64,000 bases of DNA from positions 1 to 64,000 of the forward strand of contig NZ_OLMK01000020.1 of the NCBI RefSeq assembly GCF_900290235.1. Reading direction: 5' to 3'. Made by a program: the position numbers and the translations under genes. This DNA comes from Streptomyces sp. MA5143a. GTDB lineage: Bacteria; Actinomycetota; Actinomycetes; Streptomycetales; Streptomycetaceae. The first letter of the stretch is position 1. Every line of letters begins with the position of its first letter. Of this stretch, positions 20,721 through 29,836 are shown one piece after another. The notes beneath the pieces are model-generated. The model did not search any database and had not been told where the DNA came from. It worked only from the letters and a program-made list of their open reading frames with translations.

Positions 20721-22220
<1,500 letters not shown>

Positions 22221-22385: not shown

Positions 22386-23648
22386 ATGTCCAGGGCTCTT
22401 CCGAAGTACAACAAGCGTCGCGTAGGGATCATCGGCGGCGCCGCCGCGGTCGTGCTCTCCGGAGCGGTCATCGCGGGTTCCGCTCTCGCCGGTGAGGGTG
22501 CCAACAACGACGGACAGGACGCCGCGTCCCCCGGCACCATCGCGTGCCCGGCGGTCGAGGGCAGCCTGCCCGCGATCCCCGCGTCCGCCAAGGCCGAGGT
22601 CGACCGCAACCTCGCCCTGCTTCAGACCCAGATCCAGGAGGCCAACAAGCGCCTCGTCGACACGGTCGGTCAGGGCGGCCCCAACTTCGTCCAGAACGCC
22701 ATTCTCGGCCCGCTGGAGGACAAGCGCGTCGCCGCGCTGAACCGCATCGAGACCGCCATCGGCCGCGCCGCCGCCAAGCCCGAGGGCCTGGAGAAGCTCG
22801 CCCCCTGCCAGCTCAACCAGGGCGGCGCCGCGGGCGCCGGCGACCAGGCGGGCGCGGGCGAGGAGGCCGGAGCCGGCGCCGAGGCCGGAGCGGGCGACGC
22901 CGGTGCGGGGAACGACGCGGGTGCCCCGGGCACCATCTCCTGCCCGGCGGTCGAGGGCAGCCTCCCCGCGATCCCCGCGTCCGCGCAGGCCGAGGTCACG
23001 CGCAACCTGGAGCTGCTTCAGACCCAGATCCAGGAGGCCAACAAGCGCCTCGTCGACACGGTCGGCCAGGGCGGCCCCAACTTCGTCAACAACGCGATCC
23101 TCGGCCCGCTGGAGGACAAGCGCGTCGCGACGCTGAACCGCATCGAGACCGCCATCGGCCGCGCCGCCGCCAAGCCCGAGGGCCTGGAGAAGCTCGCCCC
23201 CTGCCAGCTCAACCAGGGCGGCGCCGCGGGCGCCGGCGACCAGGCGGGCGCGGGCGAGGAGGCCGGTGCGGGCGAGGAGGCCGGCGCCGAGGCCGGTGCG
23301 GGCGAGGGCGCGGGCAACGCCGACAACGCCGGTGCCGAGAACAACGCGGGTGCCCCGGGCACCATCTCCTGCCCGGCCGTCGAGGGCAGCCTCCCCGCGA
23401 TCCCCGCGTCCGCGCAGGCCGAGGTCACGCGCAACCTGGAGCTGCTTCAGACCCAGATCCAGGAGGCCAACAAGCGCCTCGTCGACACCGTCGGCCAGGG
23501 CGGTCCGAACTTCGTCAACAACGCGATCCTCGGCCCGCTGGAGGACAAGCGCGTCGCCGCGCTGAACCGCATCGAGACCGCCATCGGCCGCGCCGCCGCC
23601 AAGCCCGAGGGCCTGGAGAAGCTCGCCCCCTGCCAGCTCAACCAGTAG
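22386..23648 (+). CDS. Secreted protein built of three near-identical 97-residue Cys-flanked units
   Basis: A 420-residue protein. Residues 1-36 form a signal peptide (basic MSRALPKYNKRR, hydrophobic core, then GSALAGEG). Three units follow at residues 49-145, 181-277 and 324-420, each exactly 97 residues, beginning PGTI[AS]CPAVEGSLP and ending LAPCQLNQ. Each unit has two Cys (54/141, 186/273, 329/416), suggesting one disulfide closing a helical module rich in heptad-like Leu, Ile and Asn. Gly/Ala/Glu linkers (GAGEEAGAG) join the units. No enzyme motif is seen and I do not recognise the family. It is followed by two strong hairpins. It could be a cell-wall or surface protein. Confidence 0.85.
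   Translation: MSRALPKYNKRRVGIIGGAAAVVLSGAVIAGSALAGEGANNDGQDAASPGTIACPAVEGSLPAIPASAKAEVDRNLALLQTQIQEANKRLVDTVGQGGPNFVQNAILGPLEDKRVAALNRIETAIGRAAAKPEGLEKLAPCQLNQGGAAGAGDQAGAGEEAGAGAEAGAGDAGAGNDAGAPGTISCPAVEGSLPAIPASAQAEVTRNLELLQTQIQEANKRLVDTVGQGGPNFVNNAILGPLEDKRVATLNRIETAIGRAAAKPEGLEKLAPCQLNQGGAAGAGDQAGAGEEAGAGEEAGAEAGAGEGAGNADNAGAENNAGAPGTISCPAVEGSLPAIPASAQAEVTRNLELLQTQIQEANKRLVDTVGQGGPNFVNNAILGPLEDKRVAALNRIETAIGRAAAKPEGLEKLAPCQLNQ
22530..23645 (+). repeat. Three in-frame 291-bp repeats within the secreted protein gene
   Basis: The units lie at 22530-22820, 22926-23216 and 23355-23645. Copies 2 and 3 differ at only a handful of bases, while copy 1 is slightly more diverged, so the last duplication is recent or the copies are kept alike by gene conversion. 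Confidence 0.9.
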
Positions 23649-23843: not shown

Positions 23844-23882
23844 TTAGACAGGCGAAGTTTTTCCGTCAATAATCGTTAGACA
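23844..23882. promoter_or_regulatory. TTAGACA direct repeat at the start of the PPOX-like gene
   Basis: TTAGACA occurs at 23844-23850 and 23876-23882, the second touching the ATG. The sequence between is AT-rich for this genome (GTTTTTCCGTCAATAATCG) and probably holds the promoter. No ribosome site is visible. Confidence 0.35.
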
Positions 23883-24469
23883 TGGGAAAGACTTACGAGC
23901 GCATCGACGGCCGCCTCCGTACCTTCATCGAGGCGCAGCCCCTCTTCTTCACGGCCTCGGCGCCCCTGTCGGCCGACGGCACGGTCAACCTCTCCCCCAA
24001 GGGCCTGCGGGGTTCGTTCGTGGTCCTCGACGAACTCACCGTCGCCTATCTGGATTTCGCGGGCTCCAACGCGGAGACCATCGCGCATCTGCGGGAGAAC
24101 GGCCGGATCACCCTCATGTGGTGCGCCTTCCAGGGCCCGCCCACCATCGTGCGCGTCCACGGCAAGGGCGAGGCCGTCTTCCGTGACGACCCACGCTTCC
24201 CGGAGCTCCTGGCGCACTTCCCCGACATCGACCCCGCCCAGCACGGTCTGCGCGCCGTCATCGTGGTGCGGGCCGAACTCGTCCGTGACAGCTGCGGCTA
24301 CGCGGTTCCCTTCATGGCGTACGAGGAGGACCGCGATCTGCACGGGCGCCGCTTCGCGCGCGAGGACGACGACTCGCTCACCGCGTACTTCCGCTCCAAG
24401 GAGCACATCGAGAGCAGCCTGGACGGACTGCCCGGGCTGCCGTTGCCACTGCCGCCGTCGGCCGGCTGA
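23882..24469 (+). CDS. Pyridoxamine 5'-phosphate oxidase-family flavoprotein
   Basis: A 195-residue protein with the split-barrel PPOX fold pattern: FFTASAPLSADGTVNLSPKG near the N-terminus, then VAYLDFAGSNAETIAHLREN and GRITLMWCAFQGPPTIVRVHG. Family members bind FMN or F420 and reduce or oxidise small molecules. The length is normal for the NLSPKG subgroup. It lies directly ahead of the flavin electron-transfer cassette, about 100 bp before the reductase gene and in the same direction, but no functional link is proven. The ATG lacks a clear ribosome site. Confidence 0.85.
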   Translation: MGKTYERIDGRLRTFIEAQPLFFTASAPLSADGTVNLSPKGLRGSFVVLDELTVAYLDFAGSNAETIAHLRENGRITLMWCAFQGPPTIVRVHGKGEAVFRDDPRFPELLAHFPDIDPAQHGLRAVIVVRAELVRDSCGYAVPFMAYEEDRDLHGRRFAREDDDSLTAYFRSKEHIESSLDGLPGLPLPLPPSAG

Positions 24470-24572: not shown

Positions 24573-25952
24573 GTGTCCACGATCGCCGGAGGTCGCGCCG
24601 CGCGCCGCCAGACGATGCGCCGCATCCGACCTCGCCGCTCCCCCGCCGTCCCGCTGCTGATCGCCTTCTGGGCGGGCGCGGCGGCGGTGGTGTGGCTGTG
24701 GTGGGACAACACGCCCTCCATCGCGGATCAGGGCAGCCAGATGGTCAACGCCGGCCGGATCACCGGCCTGCTCGGCGGATACCTGATGGCGCTGGTGGTG
24801 CTCCAGATGGCGCGGGTGCCCGCGCTGGAACGCCGGGTCGGCTCCGACCGGGTCGCCCGCTGGCACGCGATGACCGGCCGCTACACGCTCTGCCTGGTCG
24901 TCGCGCACGTCGTCCTCACGATGTACGGGTACGCCCTCCAGGCCGGTCTGACCCACACCGCGATCCTCCAGCAGACCATCGACTCCATCAACCAGCTGCC
25001 GGACATGGGCAAGGCCGCCATCGGCACCGGTCTGCTGGTGTTCATCGGGCTGATCTCGATCGGCCCGGTCCGCAAGCGGATCCCGTACGACCTCTGGTAC
25101 CACACCCACCTGCTGACGTACGCGGCGACGTTCCTGACGTTCTGGCACCAGATCACCACCGGCAACGAGTTCGCCGCCACCCCCGAGGCGAAGACGGGCT
25201 GGTACGCGCTGTACGGATCGGTGACCGCGCTGGTCGTCTGGTACCGGATCCTCACCCCGATCCGGCTGAACATGCGGCACCGGCTGCGGGTCGAGGCGGT
25301 CATCGAGGAGTCGCCCGGCATCGTCTCGGTGCTGATGAGCGGGCGCAAGCTGCACCGCATGGGCGCGGAGGCCGGACAGTTCTTCCGCTGGCGGTTCCTG
25401 GCCCCCGGTATGCGGTTCAGCTCACACCCGTACTCGCTGTCGGCGGCGCCGCGCCCCAACATGCTGCGCATCACCGTCAAGGCGATCGGCGACCACAGCT
25501 CCGCCCTGCGTGACCTGGAGCCCGGCACCCGGGTGTGGGCCGAGGGCCCGTACGGGGCGCTCACGGCCGCCAAGCGCAGCCGGGGCAAGGTGCTGCTGGT
25601 GGCCGGTGGCGTGGGCATCACGCCGATGCGGGCGCTGTTCGAGACGTTGCCCGGCGCGGCCGGTGATCTGACCCTGCTCTACCGGGCCAACAGCACCCAG
25701 GACCTGGCGCTGTGGGACGAGCTCGCGCAGATCGCGGAGGAGCGCGGGGCGCGCCTGATGTACGCGGTGAACAGCCCGGAGGGCGAGCGCCCCGACATCT
25801 CGGCGGACTCCCTGCGCCGGAAGATCCCGGACATCGAGCGCCACGACGTCTTCCTGTGCGGTCCGCCCGGGTTCGCCCAGGGCGTGTACGCGGCACTGCG
25901 CGGGGCGGGTGTCCCCACCCGCCGTATCCACCACGAGTCGTTCGAGATGTGA
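24573..25952 (+). CDS. Membrane ferric-reductase-like flavoprotein (heme b / FAD / NAD domains)
   Basis: A 459-residue protein. Residues about 28-230 hold some six membrane spans of the ferric reductase-like domain, with paired His in WHAMTGRY / VVAHVVLT and YHTHLLTY / FWHQITTG as likely heme b ligands. Residues about 240-455 form a ferredoxin-NADP reductase-type module: FAD loop SHPYSLSAAP, NAD-binding GGVGITPMRAL and C-terminal FLCGPPGF. It should move electrons from NAD(P)H across the membrane. The GTG start (24573-24575) follows GGAGGAA; the upstream in-frame Met has no such site. The next two genes supply covalent flavin carriers, so this is probably their electron donor. Confidence 0.88.
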   Translation: MSTIAGGRAARRQTMRRIRPRRSPAVPLLIAFWAGAAAVVWLWWDNTPSIADQGSQMVNAGRITGLLGGYLMALVVLQMARVPALERRVGSDRVARWHAMTGRYTLCLVVAHVVLTMYGYALQAGLTHTAILQQTIDSINQLPDMGKAAIGTGLLVFIGLISIGPVRKRIPYDLWYHTHLLTYAATFLTFWHQITTGNEFAATPEAKTGWYALYGSVTALVVWYRILTPIRLNMRHRLRVEAVIEESPGIVSVLMSGRKLHRMGAEAGQFFRWRFLAPGMRFSSHPYSLSAAPRPNMLRITVKAIGDHSSALRDLEPGTRVWAEGPYGALTAAKRSRGKVLLVAGGVGITPMRALFETLPGAAGDLTLLYRANSTQDLALWDELAQIAEERGARLMYAVNSPEGERPDISADSLRRKIPDIERHDVFLCGPPGFAQGVYAALRGAGVPTRRIHHESFEM

Positions 25953-25954
25953 GC

Positions 25955-25972
25955 GACGGCCCGCGGGCCGTC
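25955..25972 (+). terminator. Short perfect palindrome after the reductase gene
   Basis: GACGGCCCGCGGGCCGTC is a perfect 18-bp palindrome starting 2 bp after the stop codon. It may partly terminate or stabilise the reductase message ahead of the FMN_bind gene. Confidence 0.45.
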
Positions 25973-26073
25973 TCCCACTCTCCACGGGGCCGTCCCCCAC
26001 CGACCCCTGCCCATGGGACTGCCCCACGGGGCTTCCCCCTACCTGCCTTCTCACTTCAGGAGCTGAAGGAGCG

Positions 26074-27168
26074 ATGAAGAAGAGCCACCCCATCCGGCGG
26101 ACCCTGCTCGCCACCGCCGCCACCGTGTCCGGCATCGTGCTGCTGCTGTCGCTGAAGCCCGCCTCGGACCCGGCCGGATCGGTACAAGCCGGAGCGGCCG
26201 GGGGCGCTCCGTCGGCCCAGGGCGGGGTGGTGGCGGGCGCGCAGACCCTCACGGGCACCGCCGTGCAGACGGACTACGGCCCGGTCCAGGTCCGTATCAC
26301 CGTCGACGGCGGCAAGATCACCCAGGCCGACGCCGTCCAGAAGCCCAGCGGCGGCCGGTCCACGCAGATCAGCGGCACCGCGATCCCGAAGCTCAACCAG
26401 GCCGCCGTGGCCGCCGGTTCCGCCGACATCGACGCCGTCTCCGGCGCCACCTACACCAGCGACGGCTACAAGAAGTCCCTCCAGTCCGCCCTCGACCAGG
26501 CCGGCAAGGCGCAGGGCTCGGGCGGGCAGACGCTCACGGGTACGACCGTGCAGACGGACTACGGCCCGGTCCAGGTCCGTATCACCGTCGACGGCGGCAA
26601 GATCACCCAGGCCGACGCCGTCCAGAAGCCCAGCGGCGGCCGGTCCACGCAGATCAGCGGCACCGCGATCCCGAAGCTCAACCAGGCCGCTGTGGCCGCC
26701 GGTTCCGCCGACATCGACGCCGTCTCCGGCGCCACCTACACCAGCGACGGCTACAAGAAGTCCCTCCAGTCCGCCCTCGACCAGGCCGGCAAGGCGCAGG
26801 GCTCGGGCGGCGAGGGCTCGGGCGGCGGGGCCGAGGCGGGCGGCTCGCAGGACGCGGGCGGCGGCGCGGCGGACTCCGCGGCCGGGAAGTCGACGGGCAC
26901 GCAGGTGCTCACGGGCTCGGCCGTCAAGACGGACTACGGGCCGGTCCAGGTCCGTATCACCGTCACCGACGGCAGGATCACCAACGCCGAGGCGCTCCAA
27001 CAGCCGAGCGGCGGTCGCTCCACCCAGATCAGCGGCACCGCCATCCCCAAGCTCAACCAGAACGCCGTCGCGGCGGGGAGCGCCGACATCGACGCTGTCT
27101 CCGGTGCCACCTACACCAGCGAGGGATACAAGAAGTCCGTGCAGTCCGCCCTCGACCAGGCGGGCTGA
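26074..27168 (+). CDS. Exported protein with three FMN_bind domains (covalent flavin carrier)
   Basis: A 364-residue protein. The N-terminus HPIRRTLLATAATVSG has a twin-arginine-like pair and a hydrophobic core, so it is exported and perhaps membrane-anchored. Three FMN_bind domains follow at about 57-144, 152-239 and 277-364. Each contains DAVSGATYTS, the flavinylation motif; the acceptor Thr would be residues 126, 221 and 346. The domains are joined by Gly/Ser/Ala linkers. In the family, ApbE attaches FMN to this Thr by a phosphoester bond. ApbE is the next gene, 4 bp on. Three flavins in one chain could relay electrons outside the membrane. ATG 26074 follows GAAGGAG. Domains 1 and 2 are almost identical in DNA. 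Confidence 0.92.
   Translation: MKKSHPIRRTLLATAATVSGIVLLLSLKPASDPAGSVQAGAAGGAPSAQGGVVAGAQTLTGTAVQTDYGPVQVRITVDGGKITQADAVQKPSGGRSTQISGTAIPKLNQAAVAAGSADIDAVSGATYTSDGYKKSLQSALDQAGKAQGSGGQTLTGTTVQTDYGPVQVRITVDGGKITQADAVQKPSGGRSTQISGTAIPKLNQAAVAAGSADIDAVSGATYTSDGYKKSLQSALDQAGKAQGSGGEGSGGGAEAGGSQDAGGGAADSAAGKSTGTQVLTGSAVKTDYGPVQVRITVTDGRITNAEALQQPSGGRSTQISGTAIPKLNQNAVAAGSADIDAVSGATYTSEGYKKSVQSALDQAG
26242..26811 (+). repeat. 285-bp tandem duplication encoding FMN_bind domains 1 and 2
   Basis: The unit starting at 26242 recurs at 26527. Over about 250 bp I see one difference (GCCGTGG against GCTGTGG, near 26402 and 26687); only the first 20 or so bases of the unit differ more. Such identity in wobble positions means a recent duplication or gene conversion. 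Domain 3 is clearly more diverged. Confidence 0.9.
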
Positions 27169-27172
27169 TCCG

Positions 27173-27967
27173 GTGGCCGAACCCGCCGGGGCCGCCGCGC
27201 CCGCCCAGCTGCGGCACGCCGAGGAGGTCATGGGCACCGTCTTCTCCTTCGACGTCCGGGGAGGCGAGCCGGCGGCGATCAGGGCCGCGCTCGACGAGGC
27301 GGTGGCCGGGCTGCACACCGTGAACGAGGTGTTCAGCACCTACCGCGAGCAGAGCCAGATCTCCCGGCTGGCGCGGGCCGAGACCACCATCGAGGAGTGC
27401 GACCCGGAGGTCGCGGAGGTGCTCGGACTGTGTGCCGAGGCGGAGCGGGTGAGCAACGGCTGGTTCAGCGCGACCTACGAGGGCCGCTTCGATCCGACCG
27501 GCCTGGTGAAGGGGTGGGCGACGGAGCGGGCCGCTCTGCGTCTGGTCGAGGCGGGCGCGGCCGGGGTGAGCGTCAACGGCGGCGGCGACGTCCAGCTGTG
27601 CGGTGTGCCCGGCCCCGACCGGCCCTGGCGGGTGGGTGTGGCCGATCCGCTGCGGCCGGGTGGGCTGGCCGCGGTCGTCACCGCGGCGGGCGCGGACCGG
27701 TTGGCCGTCGCCACCTCGGGCACGGCCGAACGGGGCGCCCATATCGTCGACCCGCGCACCGGGAAGTCCGCGGTCACCGACCTGGTGTCGGTGACGGTGG
27801 TCGCTCCCCGGCTGACCTGGGCGGACTGCTGGGCGACGGCGGCGTTCGCGATGGGGTCGCGGGAAGGTCTGGCCTGGCTGGAGTCACTGCCGGACGTGGA
27901 GGCCCTGCTGATCACGGCGGGCGACGAGGTGCGGTGCACGGGAGGGCTGGCCTCCCGCCTGGGATGA
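27173..27967 (+). CDS. apbE: ApbE-family FMN transferase
   Basis: A 264-residue flavin transferase that would move FMN from FAD onto Thr of SGAT motifs in the preceding gene product. Family motifs: VMGTVFSFDV, GRFDPTGLVKGWATERA, VNGGGDVQL, VATSGTAERGAHIVDPRTG and the C-terminal metal-binding WADCWATAAFAMG. The GTG start lies 4 bp after the FMN_bind stop, so the two are coupled. No signal peptide or lipobox is visible, unlike many ApbE proteins, which suggests flavin attachment in the cytoplasm before export. A 20-bp tandem repeat covers its stop codon. Confidence 0.92.
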   Translation: MAEPAGAAAPAQLRHAEEVMGTVFSFDVRGGEPAAIRAALDEAVAGLHTVNEVFSTYREQSQISRLARAETTIEECDPEVAEVLGLCAEAERVSNGWFSATYEGRFDPTGLVKGWATERAALRLVEAGAAGVSVNGGGDVQLCGVPGPDRPWRVGVADPLRPGGLAAVVTAAGADRLAVATSGTAERGAHIVDPRTGKSAVTDLVSVTVVAPRLTWADCWATAAFAMGSREGLAWLESLPDVEALLITAGDEVRCTGGLASRLG

Positions 27968-28032
27968 CCGGGGCACGCCTGGGATGACCGGGGCACGCCT
28001 GGGATGACCGGGGCACGCCTGGGATGACCGGG
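27961..28032 (+). repeat. 20-bp tandem repeat over the apbE stop codon
   Basis: GGGATGACCGGGGCACGCCT is repeated exactly at 27961, 27981 and 28001, with a partial fourth copy at 28021-28032. The first copy supplies the apbE stop TGA (27965-27967). The period is not a multiple of 3, so slippage could change the C-terminus. Confidence 0.9.
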
Positions 28033-28083: not shown

Positions 28084-28620
28084 TCAGTGGCCGTTCTGGG
28101 CCAGCCGCAGCAGATGGTCCGCGAGGGCCTGACCGCCCACCGGGTCACGGCTGATCAGCAGCAGCGTGTCGTCGCCGGCGATGGTGCCCAGCACATCGTG
28201 GAGCTCCGCCTGGTCGATGGCCGAGGCCAGGAACTGGGCCGCGCCCGGCGGCGTACGGAGCACCACCAGGTTCGCGGAGGCCTCCGCGGAGATCAGCAGC
28301 TCCGCCGAGAGCCGCCGCATCCGCTCCTCCTTCGCGGACCCACCGAGCGGTGCCCGGGGCGTACGGAAACCGCCCTCGCTCGGCACCGCGTAGATGAGGT
28401 CGCCGTCGGTGTTGCGGATCTTCACCGCGTTCAGCTCGTCCAGGTCCCGGGAGAGCGTCGCCTGGGTGACGCTCAGCCCGTCGTCGGACAGCAGCTTCGC
28501 CAACTGGCTCTGCGAGCGCACCGGTTGCCGGTTGAGGATGTCCACGATCCGCCGGTGGCGTGCCGTACGGGTCTGCGGCACCGCGGGCCCCGCCTGGTCG
28601 TGCTCCTGCGCCTGGCTCAT
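28084..28620 (-). CDS. argR: Arginine repressor
   Basis: A 178-residue ArgR. The N-terminal winged helix holds [20 protein letters not shown] then LSRDLDEL, and the C-terminal oligomerisation and arginine-binding domain holds the conserved [15 protein letters not shown] and [12 protein letters not shown]. With arginine bound, the hexamer represses arg genes at ARG boxes; such boxes are seen at argH and argC here. The ATG at 28618-28620 follows a GGGGAATGGGA ribosome site. It is the last gene of argCJBDR, 19 bp after argD. Confidence 0.96.
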
Positions 28621-28639
28621 CGTCGTCCCATTCCCCGGA

Positions 28640-29836
28640 TCATCCGTCCCCCTTGGTCGCGTCCAGGACACCGGGCAGCGCCCGGAGGAAGGCGTCCACC
28701 TCGGCGTCACCGATGTTCAGCGCCGGCATGAGCCGTACGACATCGGGGGCGGGCGCGTTCACCAGGAGACCGGCGTCCTGAGCCGCCTGCTGCGCCTGGG
28801 GCGCGAGCGGCTCGGTGAGCACGATACCCAGCAGGAGGCCCGCGCCACGGACATGGGCGATCAACGGGTGGCCGAGGGACTCGATGCCCTCCCGCAGCCG
28901 CTCGCTCTGCCGCTTCACGTTCTCCAGCAGGCCCTCGGCCCGGATGGTCTCCAGGACGGCGAGCCCGGCGGCGCACGCGACGGGGTTGCCGCCGAAGGTG
29001 GTCCCGTGGTGACCGGGCCGCAGGAACTCCGCGGCCCGGCCGAAGGCGACGGTCGCGCCGAGCGGGAGTCCGCCGCCGAGGCCCTTGGCGAGGGTGACGA
29101 CGTCCGGCAGGACGCCCTCGTGGGCCTGGTACTCGAACCAGTGCCCGGTCCGGCCGACGCCGGTCTGCACCTCGTCGAGGACCAGCAGGGAACCGGTGGC
29201 CGCGGTGATCGCGCGGGCCGCCTTCAGATAGCCGGGGGGCGGGACGACGACGCCGTTCTCCCCCTGGATCGGCTCGATGATGACGAGCGCCGTCTCCTCG
29301 GTGACCGCGGCGGCCAAGGCCTTGGCGTCGCCGTAGGGCACGTGGGTGACGTCGCCGGGCAGCGGGTGGAAACCGGTCTGCTTGCCGGGCTGGCCGGTCA
29401 GGGCGAGGGCGCCCATGGTCCGGCCGTGGAAGCCGCCCGTGGTGGCGACCATATGGGTCCGCCCGGTCAGCCGGCCGATCTTGAAGGCGCCCTCGTTGGC
29501 CTCGGCGCCGGAGTTGCAGAAGAAGACCTTGCCGTCCCGGCCGAAGGTCTCCAGGAGCCGTTCGGCGAGCGCGACGGGCGGCTCGGCGACGAACAGGTTG
29601 GAGACATGTCCGAGAGAGGCGATCTGCCTGCTGACGGCCTCGACGACCGCCGGGTGGGCGTGGCCGAGGGCGTTGACCGCGATTCCGCCGACGAAGTCCA
29701 GGTACTCCTTGCCGTCGGCGTCCCACAGGGTGCTGCCCTCACCGCGGACGAGGGGCAGTCTCGGGGTGCCGTAGTTGTTCATGAGCGAGCCCTGCCACCG
29801 CTGGGTCAGCTCTGCGTTGCTCGCGGTCCCGGTCAT
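28640..29836 (-). CDS. argD: Acetylornithine aminotransferase
   Basis: A 398-residue class-III PLP aminotransferase that converts N-acetylglutamate semialdehyde and glutamate to N-acetylornithine. [18 protein letters not shown] holds the PLP-ring Asp, and the catalytic Lys lies in [16 protein letters not shown]. The glycine loop [16 protein letters not shown] is typical. ATG 29834-29836 overlaps the argB stop by 4 bp (ATGA). Length and context match bacterial ArgD in full. Confidence 0.96.

Follow-up and report, generated by a model that had tools for sequence, protein, structure and literature searches.

The locus described here is a three-gene flavinylation cassette in the genome of Streptomyces sp. 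MA5143a, lying within a 64,000-nucleotide stretch (contig NZ_OLMK01000020.1, positions 1 to 64,000; hereafter the window) and encoding a transmembrane reductase, a protein with three FMN_bind domains and an ApbE, the enzyme that transfers flavin mononucleotide (FMN) from flavin adenine dinucleotide (FAD) to protein. The ApbE carries no recognisable export signal, yet its substrate is predicted to be exported; the same holds across the class Actinomycetes, where we also recovered no homolog of EetB, on which FAD export depends in Listeria. It is this combination that makes the locus worth following, and it is apparently undescribed: among the titles and abstract openings of the openly licensed literature, we recognised no actinobacterial case of an exported substrate served by an ApbE that lacks a signal. 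We regard it as an evenly balanced proposition that Actinomycetes reverse the accepted order of maturation, with a signal-less ApbE loading FMN in the cytosol, the flavoprotein crossing the membrane afterwards, and no FAD exporter being needed. If FMN is indeed attached inside, the picture of an exported ApbE supplied with exported FAD would fail for this class; how FAD leaves the cell would cease to be a question there, and the covalent cofactor would cross the membrane together with its protein.

Judged by its model, which has a predicted local distance difference test score (pLDDT) of 94.7, the window ApbE looks active, since the model matches solved ApbE/Ftp structures and three conserved residues seem to be kept. 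The protein matches PF02424 with 155.2 bits, and S182, H190 and D218 are invariant in 74 sequences; we matched them through the motif and an alignment to E. coli ApbE with the conserved S241, H257 and D285 of the Vibrio enzyme (PMC12052999), the His-Asp spacing being 28 in both. It is a compact version, without about 50 mid-protein residues relative to E. coli ApbE, and its start lies 19 residues before the MGT core. No hydrophobic stretch was found upstream of that core, even when the frame was read back into the preceding gene, and neither the signal peptide nor the lipobox of canonical extracytosolic ApbEs is present in the window protein. The strain's genome encodes two ApbEs, and we saw a signal on neither. 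For a broader survey, we scored a signal wherever a 15-residue segment reached a mean hydropathy of at least 1.6 within the 60 residues upstream of the ApbE core, a test in which the E. coli control scored 1.99. It was passed by none of 136 ApbE frames from Streptomyces loci, a set in which some strains occur twice (five duplicates), and by one of 91 frames from other Actinomycetes; that single pass (L199), one of the 61 frames not classed as 'long', was probably caused by reading the frame upstream of the real start. The remaining 30 of these frames, the full-length 'long' class ApbEs (L157-L186), also look signal-less (0 of 30); no substrate was identified for them within the short flanks fetched. 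Of 29 ApbEs from members of the phylum that lie outside this class, 16 passed, or 17 when we added one (L256) whose core had been placed inside a membrane segment obvious by eye.

An exported ApbE needs exported FAD, which in Listeria depends on EetB (PF07456), as reported in PMC9973259. Loading of FMN inside the cell by Actinomycetes would predict that EetB is absent from the class and occurs only where ApbE is exported, an expectation that we held before the scans and had not recorded beforehand. PF07456 matched none of 197 Actinomycetes genomes, compared with an ApbE in 121 of 197 class genomes in a draw of the same size. In a phylum sample of 100 genomes, it was found in 12, all outside the class and all with a signal-bearing ApbE. 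For 29 genomes from outside the class, one ApbE per genome was tested; in a cross-table made by hand, EetB was present in 12 of the 17 genomes whose tested enzyme bears a signal and in none of the 12 whose enzyme lacks one (Fisher p 0.0001). Counted by family code, the association persisted (7 of 8 versus 0 of 7; p 0.0014), and the five signal-bearing genomes without EetB belong to one family code (f44).

The substrate of this ApbE has three PF04205 domains, all scoring over the cut-off and each with a DAVSGAT motif, behind an N-terminal anchor; it thus combines more than one motif-bearing domain with an export anchor, as in the SaFMN3 type of flavoprotein. Weak additional Pfam matches of this protein (P0002), to DUF6174, Lipid_bd and others, included no stretch passing on its own and were disregarded. 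All 107 Streptomyces orthologs have a hydrophobic anchor ahead of the domains, with HPxRR and a more positive N side in every case; class-wide, an anchor was found in 51 of 58 FMN_bind frames, of which 43 show the charge bias and eight do not. Because the N side is the more positive one, the FMN domains are predicted to lie outside, as the authors of the SaFMN3 study concluded for their protein, and we infer that the window protein bears covalent FMN. Although RR is kept in all 107 Streptomyces proteins, our own strict twin-arginine pattern was matched by only two of them and by one of 58 frames class-wide, where the median n-region, counted from the nearest Met, is four residues. With strict motifs this rare and n-regions this short, the twin-arginine (Tat) pathway was rejected as the general export route and kept as a possibility. 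In six loci (L015, L022, L024, L027, L030 and L031), all three motifs read SGAS rather than SGAT, so that Ser would accept the FMN. Four class loci (L204, L216, L224 and L239) encode a second FMN_bind frame after a long Pro/Thr-rich or Ala/Pro-rich stretch, perhaps a partner that spans the cell wall.

All three genes lie on the forward strand, the FMN_bind stop codon ending at 27168 and the GTG start of apbE following at 27173. Their grouping is not due to chance: 107 distinct orthologous loci in Streptomyces repeat this order, and the full set of three was present in 51 of 60 class-wide loci that we picked from the Actinomycetes ApbE matches, 58 of them because the Pfam match starts near profile position 125. 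The observations of the preliminary description were confirmed at the stated coordinates, namely a one-direction cassette with 4 bp between the last two genes, a membrane protein with paired histidines and FAD and NAD domains, an exported protein with three SGAT motifs, and an ApbE flavin transferase. Its interpretation was partly supported: the novelty it implied falls away, as both this type of cluster and a family member with three FMNs had been published (PMC8238504, PMC10339131), and it missed the lack of an export signal on ApbE despite an exported substrate, which bears on assembly.

The cassette is an actinobacterial MsrQ-like flavinylation cluster, a type widespread in actinobacteria. 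Meheust et al. (2021, PMC8238504) reported 1437 such clusters with an NAD-binding domain, broadly distributed in Actinobacteria, with the domain (PF00175) common and not obligatory. The window shares with them a PF01794 protein with a C-terminal NAD-binding domain, an FMN-binding protein and apbE; one difference is that the absence of a signal on the actinobacterial ApbE is not stated in the excerpted text of that report. The reductase starts with GTG, just downstream of GGAGGAA, and consists of Ferric_reduct (residues 64-189; PF01794, 68.1 bits against a cut-off of 28), FAD_binding_8 (255-329) and a fused NAD_binding_1 (342-438; PF00175, 41.4 bits against a cut-off of 22), all over cut-off. 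Its model (pLDDT 90.0), from which six membrane-length helices can be read, combines a membrane core with an FAD/NADPH domain in the manner of the NOX fold, and its best PDB match, over the whole length, is SpNOX. Two histidine pairs, H98/H112 and H179/H192, do not vary among the 70 aligned reductases and, from the NOX/MsrQ pattern, we infer that they bind heme.

Taken as a whole, we consider it probable that this MsrQ-like cassette moves electrons outward to a relay of FMN_bind domains loaded by a cytosolic ApbE before or during export, with an outlet at the cell surface. Cytosolic NAD(P)H, the reduced nicotinamide cofactor, would reduce the FAD of the reductase, and two b hemes would carry the electrons to the outer face, where they would pass to the membrane-anchored protein, each of whose FMN_bind domains (three in this strain) would carry a single covalent FMN. 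On their flexible linkers, the FMN domains may act as an equal-potential relay or an electron buffer rather than an ordered chain. ApbE would most likely draw on cytosolic FAD and attach FMN while its substrate is being exported or earlier, with no call for an FAD exporter; it need not wait for the FMN_bind domain to fold, since ApbE can modify a seven-residue tag (PMC12052999). The likeliest outlet, and the weakest step, would be a surface reaction in which ferric iron or some other small oxidant is reduced.

Iron as the acceptor is favoured by cluster context elsewhere and by a single mutant, whereas O2 is favoured by the NOX fold and by SaFMN3 chemistry. An assimilatory ferric reductase, with Fe(III) or an Fe(III)-siderophore as its surface outlet, is a tenable proposal that we put somewhat short of even. 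It is consistent with the 153 MsrQ-like clusters that carry a VIT1 iron transporter (PMC8238504), and an apbE::Tn5 mutant of Bifidobacterium breve that was impaired only with ferrous-iron chelators (PMC5449479) may point the same way. However, no iron gene was recognised by eye among the open reading frames at 22-31 kb of the window, and no recurring acceptor gene was recognised by eye in the flanks of 10 of the 60 class loci, where no library search was made; a conserved neighbouring acceptor gene was dropped as a candidate on this account. The caution of the preliminary description over the final acceptor stands.

Ordinary extracytosolic flavinylation, with ApbE leaving by an unrecognised route and FAD reaching the outside through an unknown exporter or lysis, appears unlikely while being a real contender. 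Most characterised ApbEs are exported lipoproteins (PMC12052999), and the cassette proteins are otherwise normal; the upstream segment missing from Streptomyces (0/136) and nearly so from the other class frames (1/91), together with EetB in 0/197 class genomes, argues against it. The Listeria FmnB/PplA and EetB-FmnA system (PMC9973259) likewise pairs an ApbE-type transferase with a flavinylated surface protein, but its FmnB is extracytosolic and needs exported FAD. Klebsiella pneumoniae has a cytosolic ApbE (cited in PMC12052999) that is, like ours, devoid of a signal peptide, but the protein it modifies, a fumarate reductase, is soluble and cytoplasmic. Several points weigh against cytosolic loading and the reading built on it. 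Our signal test is a hydropathy threshold of our own rather than SignalP; at least eight of the 29 genomes from outside the class contain ApbE matches beyond the one tested, and the genomes are related rather than independent. Other FAD exporters could exist, which makes the absence of EetB indirect evidence, and non-classical export of ApbE is possible. In the enteric system studied, a periplasmic location of ApbE is needed for function (PMC12052999). The short n-regions suggest that the anchors use Sec, in which case the translocon would have to pass side chains bearing FMN; such passage is hypothetical, and Tat export of a folded flavinylated protein is not supported, the strict motif being rare. 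Finally, we recognised nothing in the locus that suggests iron as the acceptor.

A bacterial NADPH oxidase, in which the NOX-fold protein and its FMN carrier would generate superoxide or peroxide from O2 at the cell surface, we hold to be rather doubtful. The closest full-length solved folds are SpNOX (8qq7 and 8qt6, with TMq 0.72 and 0.70) and animal NOX/DUOX, although the identity of SpNOX to the window reductase is only 17-18% (18% for the best match), and the likeness to an oxidase is one of predicted fold. Many exposed reduced flavins react with O2 regardless, and to our knowledge neither SpNOX has a flavinylated partner nor any NOX a flavin-carrier one. Reduced SaFMN3 does react with O2 (PMC10339131), but MsrQ-like proteins are related both to NADPH oxidases and to STEAP iron reductases (PMC8238504).

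The preliminary description had also proposed that electrons flow from NAD(P)H through heme to a three-flavin chain. Fold, motifs and literature support the path from NAD(P)H through FAD and two hemes to outer FMN; a three-flavin chain as a designed wire lacks such support. SaFMN3 of Streptomyces azureus carries three covalent FMNs of one potential, -184 mV (Tong et al. 2023, PMC10339131); it has been purified and crystallised, PDB 8P2A being its second domain (SaFMN3-D2). Like the window protein, it has three FMN_bind domains, is predicted to be anchored outside, and is encoded beside a putative flavin transferase; it differs in coming from another species, the near-identical repeats 1 and 2 being a feature of the window, and the paper takes bacterial flavin transferases as extracellular. 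With near-identical domains here and one potential in SaFMN3, more copies would mean more capacity or reach rather than a downhill series, and an ordered three-flavin chain is unlikely.

The survey of FMN_bind copy number in homologous loci that the preliminary description had suggested bears this out: triples recur, but the number is not fixed. The 107 orthologous loci, which are 117 less five duplicate reductases, three loci without ApbE and two with runs of N, contain one, two, three and four FMN_bind domains in 4, 63, 39 and 1 cases, respectively. Of these, 74 came from a nearest-reductase scan and are biased toward the clade of the window; the other 33, comprising the window and 32 loci picked among the matches listed from an even draw of the genus, gave 1, 20, 12 and 0. 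An FMN_bind match of any kind was found in 61 of 121 genus genomes. Class-wide, 55 of the 56 FMN_bind frames in the 51 loci with all three genes are single-domain, the exception with two domains (L218) coming from G295, which is coded to the same genus. On a quick reductase tree with SH-aLRT support only, copy number changed at least 13 times. Repeats 1 and 2 of the window are 97.8% identical in DNA, compared with 88.6% for the same pair in S. neyagawaensis, a similarity best read from the sequence as a recent duplication or gene conversion; in strain HM190 (L008), two of the four domains are identical over the domain. As part of the reading we consider probable, domain number drifts by tandem duplication and loss and three is not special, and we dropped the triple copy number as a point of interest.

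That the triple is an assembly artefact or a transient, functionless duplication is improbable. The window comes from a draft genome (9.8 Mb, 191 contigs) in which the near-identity of repeats 1 and 2 could have led to a wrong copy number; the contigs of two near relatives (L005 and L007) end inside the FMN_bind gene, and the changes on the tree are many. However, records titled complete show three copies (S. scabiei 87.22, L012) and four (HM190), and triple-domain loci are much more strongly clustered on the tree than when the labels are shuffled. Finally, that the FMN domains face the cytosol would at once explain the signal-less ApbE and fit the eight of 51 anchored class proteins without the charge bias, but it is very improbable given the more positive N side in all 107 Streptomyces and 43 of 51 class proteins, the Ala/Pro/Ser/Thr/Gly-rich linkers after the anchor, and the lack of an obvious use for a two-heme transmembrane reductase.

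Table 1. Features of the flavinylation cassette in the window.
Feature	Position	Strand	Basis
NOX-fold transmembrane flavocytochrome b reductase (MsrQ-like/Ferric_reduct, FAD and NAD(P)H domains), 459 aa	24573-25952	+	Pfam, alignment, model
Predicted heme ligand H98	24864-24866	+	invariant 70/70
Predicted heme ligand H112	24906-24908	+	invariant 70/70
Predicted heme ligand H179	25107-25109	+	invariant 70/70
Predicted heme ligand H192	25146-25148	+	invariant 70/70
Protein with three FMN_bind domains on Gly/Ala/Ser-rich linkers behind an N-terminal signal anchor, 364 aa	26074-27168	+	Pfam, motifs
Signal anchor, MKKSHPIRR and hydrophobic stretch; N side positive, domains predicted outside	26074-26160	+	HPxRR 107/107, charge bias 107/107
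FMN_bind domain 1; predicted FMN-bearing Thr126 at 26449-26451	26278-26496	+	PF04205; 68/88 residues (77%) identical to PDB 8P2A
FMN_bind domain 2; predicted FMN-bearing Thr221 at 26734-26736	26563-26781	+	PF04205; shares 85/86 residues with domain 1
FMN_bind domain 3; predicted FMN-bearing Thr346 at 27109-27111	26938-27156	+	PF04205; shares 73/86 residues with domain 1
Compact signal-less ApbE (FAD:protein FMN transferase), 264 aa; S182, H190 and D218 kept	27173-27967	+	PF02424, model, alignment

The nearest named reductases, all at a rounded 100%, are those of S. ossamyceticus, S. neyagawaensis and S. torulosus, with the S. neyagawaensis protein differing from that of the window at 2 of 459 residues. 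The genome of the strain contains one further such cassette, with a single FMN_bind domain (contig C131), and a third related reductase, 38% identical to the window reductase (P0001), at C177:112220-113539, a contig on which no FMN_bind or ApbE match was found. Of the 107 Streptomyces loci, 48 (L017, L021 and L086 among them) have an additional reductase directly upstream, paired with an FMN_bind gene of a single domain; this pair changed at least 14 times on the quick reductase tree and is absent from the window.

The cassette is flanked on the reverse strand by what we take by eye to be argH (20721-22151) and argR (28084-28710). Less than 3 kb from the FMN_bind gene, positions 22386-23648 (+) encode an exported-looking protein of unassigned family, none of whose Pfam matches included a stretch passing the cut-off, with three nearly identical repeats of about 92 residues (CPAVEG...APCQLNQ). 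Its homologs have one, two and three units in 7, 69 and 10 of 86 matching Streptomyces loci, making it a second gene with labile tandem domains. Between it and the cassette, positions 23882-24469 (+) encode a PPOX-type flavoprotein (PNPOx_N, 43.9 bits, over cut-off), which often occupies the same place in relatives. A perfect 20-nt tandem repeat at 27956-28032 spans the apbE stop codon and runs into the intergenic DNA.

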